From a virus, in IMG/VR virus record IMGVR_UViG_3300034105_002079, positions 1-21,525 of that record: 21,525 nucleotides of DNA; one strand, given 5' to 3'. This document shows positions 2,134 through 10,487 of the stretch, in pieces. The position numbers and the translations under genes were made by a program. The notes beneath the pieces are model-generated. The model saw only the letters and a list, made by a program, of their open reading frames with translations, was not told the origin of the DNA and made no database searches. Within the stretch, counting starts at the first letter, position 1. The number at the start of each line of letters is the position of its first letter.

Positions 2134-4116
2134 ATGAAGATATACGATATAACAGGTATAGGGGCAAATCTAACTGGATCGTTCTCCGGTTCTTTTAAGG
2201 AGATATTTACAGGAACAGCAACAACTGCTTCATATGTTCAATACAGTAATGTAGCAAACAAACCTACACTTGTATCGGGATCATCACAAATTACTTATAG
2301 TGGAATATCTAGTAAACCTGCAGGTATAGTATCTGGCTCTAGCCAAGTAGCTGCTTTTGGGTATGCCATTACTGGTTCAAACCAGTTTAAGGCAAGTCAA
2401 GCTATCACTGGCTCTTTAACAGTAACTGGAGATATAGTTGCTCAAACATTAAACGTACAACAAGTAACTAGTAGTATAGTGTTTTCTTCTGGATCAAACA
2501 GGTTTGGAAATAACTCAGGCAATACTCATAGGTTTACTGGTAGTGTAAATATAACTGGTAGTTTAACAGTGAATGGAATAGCAACTTCTGGCACTGTTTC
2601 TGGTACAACCAACTATATAGGTAAATTTACTGGTACTAATACGATTGGAAATAGTCAGATATTTGACAACGGTTCAAACGTAGGTATTGGTACCGCCCTA
2701 CCAAGTGCAGGATTAGAAATCGAAACGGATGGTTCAGTTAAAACCGCACTAAGAGTTACCTCTAATCAGGCATTTAATGCTTCTCCGGTAACAGCCATAA
2801 TGTTTCGTTATAGAATTAGTTCTGGAACTACTATTGGAGGTGCAGTTATAAATGCAGCAAAAGATAACGCTACAGAAAGTAACCAAGCAGGTAATCTACA
2901 ATTTTGGACAAATAACGGAACTACATTAGCTGAACGCATGCGTATCACCTCAGGTGGTAACGTTGGAATTGGTGCCACACCAAGTGCATGGAATACAACT
3001 TCGAGAGCATTACAATTAACTAGTTTTGTATCACTTTCACAACAACACAGTGGTGCATTAAACTTAATGTCATATGCCATTGAAAGTAGTGCAAATAGCT
3101 TTACCTATGGGGATACAGGAGTTTTCCCTACCAGATTAAACATGAACCCAAATGATGGGATAATAACTTTTTCTAATGCTGGAACAGGTACAGCCGGTAA
3201 TGCTATAACATTTACCCCAAGATTAACTATACTAAATAATGGTAATGTTGGTATAGGCGCTACTAATCCCGGGGAGCAATTAGAATTATCCAAAGCAACT
3301 TATCCCACAGTTAAATTAATAGAAACAACCGATAACGCTTCAGGTTATTTTCAATATCATAGTGAAGCAAATGAATTTAGAGTAGTTGCAATTACCAGTC
3401 ATCCATTAATATTTAGTACTACTGATATTGAACGAATGCGCATCACTTCGGGGGGGATAGTTTCTATAAATGGTGGACTAACCACATATCACCAAGTTTC
3501 TATAAAATCAAATAGCACTCAAACTTATGGAGGACTTGCAGTTTACGCAACTTCTGGAGATAGATTTATTAATGTTCAGCACACCGGGACACAAGGTTTT
3601 ATCGAAGTAGATTTTGCGGGTTCATCAGGATTTAGTGATTTAGGATTTAAAACTGGAGGAAATCCGAGAATGACTATCACTTCTGGCGGTAACGTATTAA
3701 TTGGGACAACATCTAATATTGCAAGTTCTAAATTAAGAGTTAGTGGAAATTTACAAATTGATGGTTTCCAAAAAATGTACACCTATTATATTGTTGTAGG
3801 ACCAAACTCCACAGGAACTATTACTATAAGTAGCCCAACAGGTACTAATATGCAAGGCAGTATGCAAGTAATGGCAGGTGGATATGGTAACGGTATAACA
3901 GGAAATATTACGGGTTTATGGATGGTAGGTGGATTATTATTTTTTAACAATGCTTCAACAAGTACTATTACACAAATAGTAAACTCAGTTACTTCAGATG
4001 GAAGTATGAGTTTTCAACGATCGAGTGATCAATATACTGTAAGTTTAACTAATACCGCTCCAAACCCGACCGGAACAAAATCTTTCTATGTATCTGTAAT
4101 TATCAACGGTGAATAA
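2134..4116 (+). CDS. Tail fibre / adhesin-like structural protein B (660 aa)
   Basis: This is a complete paralogue of fibre A. The start gives MKIYDITGIGANLTGSFSGS. Next comes a segment with two SGSSQ units spaced by Gly/Pro-rich turns (about residues 48-72), then the 79-residue block shared with fibre A (about residues 68-146). At least five RMxITSGGNVxIG-type units follow (near nt 2680, 2930, 3220, 3430 and 3665), and then a unique C-terminus of about 110 residues rich in Thr, Ser and Gly from nt 3775. The repeated short strands suggest a fibrous beta-rich shaft, with the unshared end as receptor-binding tip (inference). Unlike fibre A it lacks the YEEGTWTPT motif, so the two proteins share a base and shaft style but carry different tips. 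No Shine-Dalgarno is visible; a TATTTATA box lies 22 bases upstream. Confidence 0.8.
   Translation: MKIYDITGIGANLTGSFSGSFKEIFTGTATTASYVQYSNVANKPTLVSGSSQITYSGISSKPAGIVSGSSQVAAFGYAITGSNQFKASQAITGSLTVTGDIVAQTLNVQQVTSSIVFSSGSNRFGNNSGNTHRFTGSVNITGSLTVNGIATSGTVSGTTNYIGKFTGTNTIGNSQIFDNGSNVGIGTALPSAGLEIETDGSVKTALRVTSNQAFNASPVTAIMFRYRISSGTTIGGAVINAAKDNATESNQAGNLQFWTNNGTTLAERMRITSGGNVGIGATPSAWNTTSRALQLTSFVSLSQQHSGALNLMSYAIESSANSFTYGDTGVFPTRLNMNPNDGIITFSNAGTGTAGNAITFTPRLTILNNGNVGIGATNPGEQLELSKATYPTVKLIETTDNASGYFQYHSEANEFRVVAITSHPLIFSTTDIERMRITSGGIVSINGGLTTYHQVSIKSNSTQTYGGLAVYATSGDRFINVQHTGTQGFIEVDFAGSSGFSDLGFKTGGNPRMTITSGGNVLIGTTSNIASSKLRVSGNLQIDGFQKMYTYYIVVGPNSTGTITISSPTGTNMQGSMQVMAGGYGNGITGNITGLWMVGGLLFFNNASTSTITQIVNSVTSDGSMSFQRSSDQYTVSLTNTAPNPTGTKSFYVSVIINGE
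2335..2571 (+). repeat. Paralogous fibre base module, copy 2
   Basis: Second copy of the 79-residue module, at a constant offset of 2333 bases from copy 1. It includes the shared stretch AQTLNVQQVTSS and the ending FTGSVNITGSLTV. Confidence 0.85.
2930..2960 (+). repeat. 31-base identical fibre repeat, copy 2
   Basis: Identical over 31 bases to 726-756, inside the other fibre gene; the flanking bases diverge at once on both sides. Confidence 0.85.
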
Positions 4117-6549: not shown

Positions 6550-7041
6550 ATGGCCGTATTAGATACCAACGAAATGTTGTACAGAGCATTTGAACCTCAA
6601 TTAAAAAACAGGTTCGTGCTATATATGGATTCGATTCCTGCTTTTATGATTAAGAAGGTTAAAGCACCTACTTTCACAGACGAGCAGATAAAAATCCCAC
6701 ATATCAACTCTTATTTTAAAGTAAGAGGTGGTCAAAGAGTGTGGGAGGATATTGATATGACTCTATACCAACCAATTTCTCCTTCTGGAGCTCAGTCTGT
6801 AATGGAATGGGCACGATTGGGACACGAAACTGTAACTGGTAGATCTGGGTATTCTGACTTTTATAAAAAAGATTTAGTAATCAATATTATTGGCCCTCCA
6901 GGAGATATTGTAGGTGAGTGGATAATTAAAGGAGCTTTCTTGACTAAAGGTGACTTTGGAGACTACTCATGGGAAGATCCAGGAGCAACAAATGATATCG
7001 CAATAACAGTTGCTTGCGATGCTTGTATATTGAATTTTTAA
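6550..7041 (+). CDS. 19: Tail tube protein (gp19-like, 163 aa)
   Basis: T4 gp19-type tube subunit; hexamers stack to form the inner tail tube. The length (163 aa) matches T4 gp19 (163 aa). Supporting features are the opening LYRAFEPQLKNRFVLYMDSIPAF, a central IKIPHINSYFKVRGGQRVWEDIDMTLYQPISPSG, and WARLGHETVTGRSGY, arranged as in gp19 relatives, plus its place directly after the sheath. It lacks membrane segments, as expected for a tube protein. A strong intrinsic terminator starts 24 bases after the stop, so the sheath/tube transcript most likely ends here. The start is chosen at ATG 6550; the leader is A-rich with no Shine-Dalgarno. Confidence 0.92.
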   Translation: MAVLDTNEMLYRAFEPQLKNRFVLYMDSIPAFMIKKVKAPTFTDEQIKIPHINSYFKVRGGQRVWEDIDMTLYQPISPSGAQSVMEWARLGHETVTGRSGYSDFYKKDLVINIIGPPGDIVGEWIIKGAFLTKGDFGDYSWEDPGATNDIAITVACDACILNF

Positions 7042-7065: not shown

Positions 7066-7095
7066 AAAAAAGCCTAGGAAACTAGGTTTTTTTTT
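7066..7095 (+). terminator. Intrinsic terminator after the tube gene
   Basis: AAAAAAGCCTAG (7066-7077) pairs with CTAGGTTTTTTT (7082-7093) across a GAAA tetraloop, with a nine-T run at 7087-7095. The A/T extension also makes it a possible bidirectional terminator. Confidence 0.88.
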
Positions 7096-7134: not shown

Positions 7135-7878
7135 ATGGATCAGAAATTTGAATTTCCAAAAGAGGCAGTTGAATTGCCATCTAAAGGGTTGGTATACCCA
7201 GAGTCCTCACCACTATCTAAAGGTGTTGTAGAGGTACGCTACATGACAGCGCAGCATGAGGATATTTTAACAAATCAAAATTACTTGCAGAAAGGAACTG
7301 TTATTGATAAGCTTATCCAAGCCCTATTGGTTGACGAAAGCATTACATACAGCGAACTTTTAATAGGAGATAAGGATGCTCTAATGGTTGCAGCAAGAAT
7401 TCTAGGTTATGGTAAAGAGTATGAAATCACATATGAGGGACAGCCCTATGTTGTAGATTTAACAACTATTGAGCATAAGAAAATAGACTTTGATTTATTG
7501 GCAAAAAGTAAGAATGAGTTTTATTTTACCCTACCTTCTACAGGTACTGAAGTAACTTTCAAACTTCTTAGCCATGCAGATGAGCAAAAGATAGATCAAG
7601 AAGTTCAGGGGATGAAGAAAATCAATAAAGATTTCTCAGGAGAACTATCCACAAGGCTAAAGCATATGATAACCTCTGTAGGAGGATCTAGAGAGACTAA
7701 GGACATTAGACAATTTGTAGATAAGCAATTACTTGCAGTAGACTCTAGAGCCCTTAGAAAGCACTTAGAAACCGTTCAACCTGGAGTTGATTTTAAATTC
7801 TATCCAGAAAATGGACCAGAGGGAGGGGTTGCTCTTCCTATAGGACTCAACTTTTTTTGGCCTGACTTCAGAGTATAG
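7135..7878 (+). CDS. Baseplate hub / tail assembly protein (T4 baseplate gp26-type), zero frame
   Basis: The 247-aa zero-frame product begins MDQKFEFPKEAVELPSKGLVYP. It has the block VRYMTAQHEDILTNQNYLQKG (about 35-55), then LIGDKDALMVAARILGYG, and the late stretch LPSTGTEVTFKLLSHADEQK. This layout resembles the T4-type baseplate hub/assembly protein family around gp26 (Pfam T4_baseplate), widespread in marine T4-like phages; the exact T4 counterpart is uncertain. Its place between the tube and tape measure genes is where tail assembly chaperones sit. The zero frame ends FFWPDFRV-stop right after a run of seven T. The +1 frame continues with coding-quality sequence to 8101, so the functional product may be a ~321-aa frameshift fusion in addition to this form. 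Confidence 0.85.
   Translation: MDQKFEFPKEAVELPSKGLVYPESSPLSKGVVEVRYMTAQHEDILTNQNYLQKGTVIDKLIQALLVDESITYSELLIGDKDALMVAARILGYGKEYEITYEGQPYVVDLTTIEHKKIDFDLLAKSKNEFYFTLPSTGTEVTFKLLSHADEQKIDQEVQGMKKINKDFSGELSTRLKHMITSVGGSRETKDIRQFVDKQLLAVDSRALRKHLETVQPGVDFKFYPENGPEGGVALPIGLNFFWPDFRV
7852..7858 (+). promoter_or_regulatory. Candidate programmed frameshift site (T7 run)
   Basis: In the zero frame the codons read AAC TTT TTT TGG. A P-site Phe-tRNA on the second TTT can re-pair perfectly with TTT one base forward (+1) or two bases back (-2). Both lead to GGC at 7859 in the open downstream frame. The +1 frame opens only after a TAG at 7841-7843 and the zero frame closes at 7878, so any shift must occur within these ~35 bases. 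Confidence 0.5.
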
Positions 7879-8101
7879 AGTTAGTTTATTCACTCAAATC
7901 CATGAGATAGTTTTTCATGGTAAGGGTGGATATTCTTTTGATGCAGTTTATAATATGCCAATATGGCTGAGAAACTTTACTGCAAAGAAGATAGCAGAGT
8001 ATTACGAAAAGGAAGCAGAGAGTCATAAAAACGCAAGCTCACCAAACTCACAACGTACAACGGTTAAAATACCAGACTATGTAAGCAAAGCTAGAAAATA
8101 A
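7859..8101 (+). CDS. Frameshift extension of the tail assembly gene (80 codons, +1 frame)
   Basis: The frame one base forward is open from 7844 to the TAA at 8099-8101 and reads from 7859 GLTSEYRVSLFTQIHEIV, then FHGKGGYSFDAVYNMPIWLR, then a Lys/Glu-rich helix and a Ser/Lys-rich tail. It looks like the short protein that follows gp26-type genes in T4-like phages (an MP-x-x-x-R core followed by a charged helix), so it is very likely coding. No ATG, GTG or TTG precedes the ATG at 7955, which lies inside the conserved-looking core and would give only 48 aa. Expression as a fusion by +1 or -2 shifting is therefore more likely than an independent start. A hairpin overlaps its stop codon. A real frameshift mutation or a one-base assembly error in the T run cannot be excluded. 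Confidence 0.7.
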   Translation, partial: GLTSEYRVSLFTQIHEIVFHGKGGYSFDAVYNMPIWLRNFTAKKIAEYYEKEAESHKNASSPNSQRTTVKIPDYVSKARK

Positions 8102-8114
8102 TCTAGCTTTTGCT
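8084..8114 (+). terminator. Terminator-like hairpin at the end of the frameshift extension
   Basis: AGCAAAGCTAG (8084-8094) pairs with CTAGCTTTTGCT (8103-8114), one T bulged, around the loop AAAATAAT that contains the +1-frame stop codon. There are only four T within the descending arm, so termination strength is uncertain. Confidence 0.6.
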
Positions 8115-8135: not shown

Positions 8136-10487
8136 ATGGCACAAGATTTAGGTAATAGTCCAAAACAGCAAGCTGAAGTAATAGCAGAGACGTTATTATC
8201 TGTAGGGGCTAGAATATCCGAAACTATTAAGGATGCTATACAAGATGCAGTAGATGGTGTTGATGCAACAATATATGAGAAACTAGGAAATAGCCTTACA
8301 TCCTCCTTTTCAAAACTAGCTAAATTCTCAGAGGAGGCAGCGAACAATACTTTTAAAATATCAGAAGGGTTGTTAAATTCAGATTCTATATCTAAACAGT
8401 TATTAAGCTTAGAAGAAAAAAAATTAGCCATACAAAGACAGATGAGCTTGGCTAAAGAAATTTTGCAGGAGGATGATATAAATAGGCTTCAAACTGCATT
8501 TGATCAAACTGAGAAAATATTAGAAGTACAAAAAAAGCTTCTTCAAGAAGAAAAAGCTATCACCGATGCTGTAGATAAAAGAGTAGGACTTGTTGGTAAA
8601 CTTGCTGGGGCTATGAAAGCCATTCCAGGCCTAGGCAATGTCATAAATGCAAAAGAGGTAGACGCTGCATTAAGGAAAGCAGCTGTACAACTTGATGAAA
8701 ATGGGAACTTAGTACAAAGCGGTACAGGTAAGTTCAAGATGATGGCGATAGCTGCAAAGACTGTAGGAAAACAGTTTGCAACAGCCATGCTAGATCCAGG
8801 AGTCATAGTAGGTAAGATAGTAGAACAATTCTTTGCAATAAACAAAGCGTCTGTTGAACTAAGAAGATTGACGGGGGATACCGCTGTTAGTTTTAATATA
8901 TTTGCAAATGGAGCAGCATCCTCAGTTCAAATATTAGAAACAGCTGCTGAATTAACTAAGCAAATAGGATTTAATGCTCAAAGTGCATTTTCTCAAGACG
9001 TAATTGCGAATGCAGCCGACTTAAAAGTTGAAATGGGGCTGGCAGCAGATGAGGCTGGCGGTATTGCGATGATGGCTCAAACAAGCGGTAAGAGTGTGGA
9101 TTCTATTACGGATAGCGTAGTGGGCACAACCTCCGCATTTAATAGAGCAAATAGGTCTGCAGTATCTCAGGGATTAGTTCTTAGAGATGTAGCAAAAACT
9201 TCAGATAGTATTAAATTATCGTTGGGTAATAATCCAAAAGCCTTAGCTGACGCAGCATCACAGGCAAAAAGATTGGGAACAGACTTAGCTGGATTAAACC
9301 AAATAGCAACTAGCCTACTTGAATTTGAATCATCTATTGAAGCCGAATTAGAAGCACAACTTTTAACTGGTAATCAAATAAACCTATCTAAGGCAAGAGA
9401 ACTTGCTTTAACTAATGATTTGGAAGGTTTAGGAACTGAAATATTCAAGAATACTGTTGATATAGAAAAGTTCGGCAAAATGGGTAGGCTAGGTCAAGAA
9501 GCTCAAGCAAAAGCTCTTGGAATGACTAGAGACCAGCTTGCTAGAGTTGCTTATTTACGAGCACTTGATAGTAAGATGACTGATGAGCAGGCCTCAGCTG
9601 CTGCCGGAGTTAATGCGGAGGAGATGAAGCGTATATCGGTACAAGAAAATTTTACAGCTGCCTTAAATAAAGTAATGGGGGCACTTGCTCCAATTTTAGA
9701 AATGGTAGGTAATTTATTTTCAATACCATTGTTTGGTCCTATGCTTGCTGGATCTTTATTATTAATACCTGCAATAAGTATTATTAGTCAGGGCTTTATG
9801 GCTATGGCAGGGGCATTAGGTTTTGCAACAGCTGCTAAAGTGGCTAATACTGGGGCAACGGTATCAAATACGGTTGCAAACACTGGTTTAGCAGCTTCTA
9901 ATACAGCAGTGACAGCTTCCTCTGCCCCAGCAGCCGGGGGATTTTCGGCAATGGGAGCTGCTTTGAAAAGCTTTGGAGCAGCGGCGGCAACAGCTATACC
10001 TACATTACTTACCATAGCCGCAGTGGCAGCCGGTATAGGATTAGCATTTGCAGGAGTTGGATTTGCTTTAAAATCTGTACCTGAAATATTAACTTTAATA
10101 ACCCCAGAGAAAGCAGCAGGTATGGTTTTACTTGGTCAAGCATTTGGTGGGCTTGCTTTAGGATTAGCAGCTATTGCAGTTTCAGGATTAGCAGCATTGC
10201 CAGTATTATTAGGTCTTCAAAAATTAGGTGTTCTAGGTGGAGCTATTGCCGTACAAGCAGGTGCATCCCCGGGAGGAGCAGCTATTGCTGGATCGCAGAA
10301 GCCAGTTGAAAGCCCACAGGCACCAGCTGCATCTTTATCATTAGATCCTTTAGTGACTGAAATAAAATTAATGAGGGAAGAAATGACATCTCTTATGAAA
10401 CAAGTTATGGGTAGGGAGATTAAAGTATACCTAGATGGATATTTAGTTGGTCAGGGAACTCAACAGGCTCAAACTTCATCAGGTTAA
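8136..10487 (+). CDS. Tail tape measure protein (783 aa)
   Basis: A long helical protein placed right after the tail assembly gene, the standard position of the tape measure (T4 gp29 role: sets tail length and leaves the tail tube at DNA injection). Residues ~75-145 are charged with heptad-like Leu/Ile spacing (EEKKLAIQRQM, KILEVQKKLLQEEK), suiting a coiled coil. Residues ~519-565 and ~608-708 are strongly hydrophobic, Ala/Gly-rich stretches (SIPLFGPMLAGSLLLIPAIS and several later ones), as in tape measures that enter the host membrane. The C-terminus has MREEMTSLMKQVMGREIKVYLDG, the short strand-and-loop end typical of the family. No lytic domain is visible. It is long for a T4 gp29 homologue (590 aa), predicting a longer tail. 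Confidence 0.85.
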   Translation: MAQDLGNSPKQQAEVIAETLLSVGARISETIKDAIQDAVDGVDATIYEKLGNSLTSSFSKLAKFSEEAANNTFKISEGLLNSDSISKQLLSLEEKKLAIQRQMSLAKEILQEDDINRLQTAFDQTEKILEVQKKLLQEEKAITDAVDKRVGLVGKLAGAMKAIPGLGNVINAKEVDAALRKAAVQLDENGNLVQSGTGKFKMMAIAAKTVGKQFATAMLDPGVIVGKIVEQFFAINKASVELRRLTGDTAVSFNIFANGAASSVQILETAAELTKQIGFNAQSAFSQDVIANAADLKVEMGLAADEAGGIAMMAQTSGKSVDSITDSVVGTTSAFNRANRSAVSQGLVLRDVAKTSDSIKLSLGNNPKALADAASQAKRLGTDLAGLNQIATSLLEFESSIEAELEAQLLTGNQINLSKARELALTNDLEGLGTEIFKNTVDIEKFGKMGRLGQEAQAKALGMTRDQLARVAYLRALDSKMTDEQASAAAGVNAEEMKRISVQENFTAALNKVMGALAPILEMVGNLFSIPLFGPMLAGSLLLIPAISIISQGFMAMAGALGFATAAKVANTGATVSNTVANTGLAASNTAVTASSAPAAGGFSAMGAALKSFGAAAATAIPTLLTIAAVAAGIGLAFAGVGFALKSVPEILTLITPEKAAGMVLLGQAFGGLALGLAAIAVSGLAALPVLLGLQKLGVLGGAIAVQAGASPGGAAIAGSQKPVESPQAPAASLSLDPLVTEIKLMREEMTSLMKQVMGREIKVYLDGYLVGQGTQQAQTSSG

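Follow-up and report, generated by a model that had tools for sequence, protein, structure and literature searches.

A candidate programmed +1 frameshift in the tail assembly chaperone gene of a T4-like phage lineage

The window analysed here, the whole 21,525-nt stretch of record IMGVR_UViG_3300034105_002079, derives from a marine T4-like phage. It contains a T4 gp26-type gene that stops at position 7878, and the +1 reading frame continues across this stop up to 8101. This raises the question of whether the second frame encodes part of the same protein and, if so, by which route it is reached. We conclude, with a probability of roughly 0.87, that the gene carries a programmed +1 frameshift and would thus give rise to both a short and a long tail assembly chaperone. 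The comparative data described below support this proposal, which had already been made in a sequence-only reading of the locus.

Gene layout in the window and its relatives

All features described lie on the plus strand. The zero-frame ORF (7135-7878, 247 aa) ends with ...GLNFFWPDFRV at the stop codon TAG (7876-7878). The +1 frame is open from 7844 to 8101 and comprises 85 codons, 80 of which follow the likely slip point. The predicted extension (80 aa and stop) accordingly covers 7859-8101, and the stretch from 7859 to the zero-frame stop at 7878 is dual-coded. These coordinates agree with those of the sequence-only reading, as does the run of seven T at 7852-7858, which recurs in L001, a contig of 99% identity derived from a different sample. 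The first ATG, GTG or TTG of the +1 ORF is the ATG in VYNMP, 37 codons in and within the domain, so that a start codon of its own was rejected for the second part in the window. A hairpin at 8084-8114 (-14.1 kcal/mol, z -4.1) wraps the +1-frame stop TAA (8099-8101) in its loop, as had been noted.

The gene is located directly downstream of the tail tube gene (6550-7041; phrog_4542, E 5e-14) and directly upstream of the probable tape measure gene (8136-10487, 783 aa), which was assigned by position and by a syntenic gene annotated as tail tape measure in Flavobacterium phage immuto. Gene order and profile matches agree with the predicted location between tube and tape measure, which is the position of a tail assembly chaperone gene. 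The overall order sheath, tube, chaperone gene, tape measure is the same in immuto. In the gap between the tube and chaperone genes, a terminator-like hairpin followed by a T run (7066-7093, z -4.4) may lower chaperone expression relative to that of the tube. The record of Bacillus phage SP-15 has a terminator annotated at the matching place (L142, 1430-1462).

A first scan of viral sequences yielded 15 relatives, and the second ORF was in the +1 frame in all that reached past the junction. Profile scans extended the collection to 264 loci, a few of which were fetched twice with different starts. Using an HMM of the C-terminal (T) domain, the domain was found in the +1 frame at 256 of the 264 loci (E<1e-5). 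Six of the remaining eight had a weaker or truncated +1 domain, and two distant jumbo phages, XacN1 and LR756511, had it in the -1 frame. Every complete relative of the lineage (195 clusters at 90% identity) keeps the two-frame layout, including the isolated phages immuto, Microcystis phage Mel-JY01, Listeria phage LIS04, SP-15 and Streptococcus phage GXN1. Nowhere among the relatives do the two parts form a single continuous frame at this point. The distance from the slip to the zero-frame stop is 3-10 codons in relatives. Among 107 relatives, the +1 ORF extends past this stop by a median of 259 nt (minimum 181, taken from complete contigs), and the -1 frame closes a median of 10 nt before it.

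Beyond the zero-frame stop, the median dN/dS in the +1 frame was 0.167, with values <1 in all 40 usable close pairs, and changes occurred mostly at third positions of the +1 frame. The corresponding value for the zero-frame part was 0.149. The part beyond the zero-frame stop is therefore under purifying selection. Existing annotation covers it by stubs of about 40 codons in immuto and SP-15 and by nothing in LIS04; standard annotation thus misses the long protein.

The two predicted products

The zero-frame product matched phrog_150, 'baseplate hub', with an E value of 9e-9 and 36.1 bits up to profile position 207. For the fusion, the match improved to 2e-10 and 41.4 bits and reached position 270 of 282, and the +1 part extended the match in several relatives too. 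Since T4 gp26 fills positions 14-235 of this profile and T4 gp51 positions 13-280, the short form can be assigned as the counterpart of gp26 and the fusion as that of gp51. The match to Pfam PF12322 (T4_baseplate) scored 17.6 bits, under the gathering score of 24.5. Direct comparison of lineage profiles with the single T4 gp26 and gp51 sequences by hhalign gave no significant match, so the gp26/gp51 link rests on the phrog_150 profile and on BFVD folds.

The zero-frame and +1 parts were modelled apart, and rows from annotated phage records were left out. The AF2 model of the short form had a pLDDT of 93.5, and its full-length matches in BFVD were T4-type hub proteins. Among 495 PDB chains, the two closest to the N-terminal domain were tail assembly chaperones, both at middling Z scores: YqbN, which we take to be such a chaperone (3klu; Z 5.3, rmsd 4.6, 89 aligned), and that of HK97 (2ob9; Z 4.4, rmsd 5.0, 82 aligned). 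The fold of the modelled N-terminal domain may thus be that of tail assembly chaperones of the HK97/YqbN type. The C-terminal part was predicted to form a three-helix domain (pLDDT 83.8), for which a fold search of the PDB returned no match. The C-terminal domain of the window and 12 of 63 members resembled the Pfam domain of unknown function DUF6760 (best E 2.7e-6), which may represent a stand-alone form of the chaperone C-terminal domain. With phrog_634, matches were confined to the genomes of T4, cyanophages, HTVC008M and KVP40, with none in the lineage; single C-terminal parts compared with phrog_634 matched weakly (7 of 63, best 4.7e-4).

The shift site and rival routes to the second frame

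Site statistics were calculated on the 195 clusters. The consensus of the shift signal is TTT-[T/C]TT-T-(GG/AC/TC)-CCT, with TTTTTTTGGCCT and TTTCTTTGGCCT as natural examples; in the window the site reads TTT TTT TGG (7852-7860), and the TTT[T/C]TT-T core is kept in nearly all clusters. The first codon is TTT in 192 clusters and TTC in three. At the second codon, TTT (168) and CTT (25) predominate, with one TTA and one CTA. The codon after the slip is TGG in 173, TAC in 20 and TTC in two clusters, always beginning with T. CCT is next in 194 of 195, in part because the +1 frame has an overlapping Leu codon there. In every variant, the few exceptional sites included, a tRNA on one or the other codon can re-pair one base forward. 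The sequence-only reading had emphasized the T run: T7 is indeed common among relatives, but it is not essential, as 25 of the 195 clusters (13%) have TTTCTTT, which offers the presumably equally slippery CUU_U re-pairing of the RF2 site. The essential element thus appears to be the re-pairing of [T/C]TT onto TTT rather than the run itself.

From this layout we infer that the shift occurs, that re-pairing takes place in the P site, and that the ratio of products and their role in assembly are as follows. The majority of ribosomes would end in the zero frame and produce the short form, TAC-N. In a fraction, at TTT-TTT-TGG (TTT-CTT-TGG in relatives), the peptidyl-tRNA on the second codon would release [U/C]UU and re-pair one base forward on UUU, in the window from 7855-7857 to 7856-7858, skipping one T. 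Reading would then resume in the +1 frame (...NFF|GLTSEYR..., the bar marking the slip) and continue to 8101, giving the long form, TAC-NC, with the additional three-helix domain at its C-terminus. By analogy to gpG/gpGT of lambda, many short and few long copies may cover the tape measure and bring in tube subunits.

The sequence upstream of the site is also constrained. T was found immediately 5' of TTTTTT in none of 165 clusters, compared to 74.6 expected from codon usage, and in none of 84 compared to 37.9 expected at 70% clustering; these expectations, like that for the preceding codon, assume independence of the clusters, which holds only in part. This indicates that the -1 heptamer T TTT TTT is avoided. 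In 89 of 96 clusters, where 20 would be expected, the preceding codon (AAC in the window, 7849-7851) has G or C as its third base; this base is never T, and the bias exceeds that at the neighbouring codons checked. Across the 195 clusters, G is strongly preferred over A in this codon (CAG, GAG, GGG) and Arg is encoded by CGA, not AGA. Avoidance of the -1 heptamer does not account for the preference for G over A. Because the C-terminal part is in the +1 frame and T never precedes TTTTTT, a -1 frameshift as in cyanophages and KVP40 does not apply to this lineage.

Counting against a shift is the absence of the usual bacterial +1 stimulators, a stop codon in the A site and a Shine-Dalgarno sequence 3 nt upstream. 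None of the 195 clusters has a stop codon in the A site, and no AGGGGG-like consensus occurs at -12 to -7, where -11 is T in 84%. Compared with control stretches, downstream RNA structure was marginally stronger (mean z -0.85 vs -0.17), too weak a difference to retain a stimulatory structure as a candidate.

The same fusion could be produced by a -2 shift, as is used by the chaperone gene of Mu, in which the tRNA re-pairs two bases back and one extra residue is added (...NFFFGLT...). On T7 such a shift would retain perfect pairing, and on TTTCTTT tRNA-Leu(GAG) could pair with UUC through one G-U. The variants of the first codon argue against this route: in the three TTC-TTT-T clusters a -2 shift places tRNA-Phe on UCU with a mid-codon mismatch, whereas +1 pairing stays perfect, and the same is true for TTC-TTT-C in phage GXN1. 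We therefore regard a -2 shift as unlikely.

The C-terminal part might instead be a separate gene, translated from a non-standard start codon or through re-initiation downstream of the zero-frame stop. In about half of the 107 relatives a TTG occurs in the +1 frame six codons upstream of the slip, so that separate initiation is possible in those, and gp51-like pieces are annotated in GenBank as separate genes in cyanophages and KVP40. However, the second part has no consistent start codon among relatives, and 27 of the 107, including the window, lack any ATG, GTG or TTG between the upstream stop and the 20th codon after the slip. A separate gene would also leave the TTT[T/C]TTT constraint and the bias of the preceding codon unexplained, and T4 gp51 demonstrates that the fused form is a real type of protein. 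Taken together, separate initiation is distinctly unlikely as the general explanation.

Alternatively, RNA polymerase might slip on T7, a homopolymer present in most relatives, yielding transcripts one base shorter that are read in the +1 frame. Fusions of this type are known to arise by transcriptional slippage (PMC5009743). Seven T are short for efficient polymerase slippage. The 25 clusters with TTTCTTT have a longest run of four T and the same two frames, and they occur at no fewer than four separate places in the tree. This distribution argues against polymerase slippage and rules it out as a general cause, leaving it very improbable. Finally, a recent one-base insertion into an ancestral single frame, a pseudogene or a sequencing error, the first of which the sequence-only reading had allowed for, can be dismissed even though homopolymers are error-prone, because the layout is conserved in every complete relative, in the five isolated phages and in the 99%-identical independent contig, with both parts under purifying selection.

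Direction of the shift in related phages and known systems

In P-SSM4, Syn9, HTVC008M and KVP40, the zero frame ends with ...SFF or ...DFF and the C-terminal part is in the -1 frame, at sites reading AGT/TCT/GAT-TTT-TTC or AGT-TTT-TTT. The HMM of the +1 lineage, run against a few hundred sequences, detected this part in HTVC008M (2.6e-5), KVP40 (2.7e-4) and P-SSM4 (2e-3), and in Syn9 only at 0.35. The homologous domain is thus reached at the same Phe-Phe and likewise through another frame, but on T-TTT-TTC or T-TTT-TTT by a putative -1 shift, whereas the lineage studied here would use +1 and never has T before TTTTTT. In the more distant T4-type relatives, slippage at this position therefore appears to go backward. 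The jumbo phages LR756511 (L022) and XacN1 (L143) also have the C-terminal part in the -1 frame, in XacN1 as judged by the open frame only, indicating that the direction differs outside the cyanophage group too. The 96 rows of the main +1 group cluster together with support in the tree; -1 rows are placed elsewhere, several on long branches. We give an even chance to the idea that one Phe-Phe site changed direction, being -1 in cyanophages and KVP40 and +1 in this lineage, where it would work with neither stop codon nor Shine-Dalgarno sequence. If true, this would be a widespread natural +1 signal of a type not known from bacterial tail genes, and one or two bases may decide its direction.

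T4 has long been the exception among long-tailed phages, lacking the otherwise widely conserved G-T shift of the chaperone gene (PMC5009743). The sequence-only reading knew of no frameshift in the T4-type gp26 family. Such frameshifts are not without precedent, given the -1 layouts above and PMC12846349, which cites Vladimirov et al. 2022 for slippery -1 sites in the TAC-N genes of T4-like phages. Some T4-like phages have separate short and long genes, according to PMC10885494, which cites the same work. No description of a +1 shift in this lineage was found in the literature searched, Vladimirov et al. 2022 lying outside it. The unusual feature here would thus be the +1 direction, not frameshifting as such. 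Within the T4-like phages, a large and mostly uncultured branch would use +1 and its relatives -1 or two genes. This gives a natural series for studying changes in the direction of a recoding site and the basis of +1 shifting where stop codon and Shine-Dalgarno sequence are missing.

Compared with known systems, lambda gpG/gpGT belong to the lambda family and use a -1 shift, in contrast to the predicted +1 shift in the gp26/gp51 family. T4 encodes its phrog_150 proteins in two separate genes instead of one gene with a frame change. The RF2 gene (prfB) shares the +1 direction, and its documented slip from CUU to UUU, the site for which is also present in Flavobacterium johnsoniae prfB (PMC8710568), is available in the TTTCTTT variants; most other clusters, including the window, have UUU_U instead. 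RF2 further depends on an A-site stop and a Shine-Dalgarno sequence 3 nt upstream and is autoregulatory, whereas the sites here have UGG, UAC or UUC, neither feature, and no autoregulatory role. A tail assembly gene of the haloarchaeal myovirus HSTV-2 is reported as very likely using +1 (PMC5009743), a likeness with an archaeal virus drawn by description only.

Scans of the window for tRNAs and Rfam families found nothing. Two adjoining fibre-like ORFs (2-1846 and 2134-4116) have an N-terminal stretch in common, as well as repeated MRITSGGNVGIG blocks, and look like paralogues with differing C-termini.
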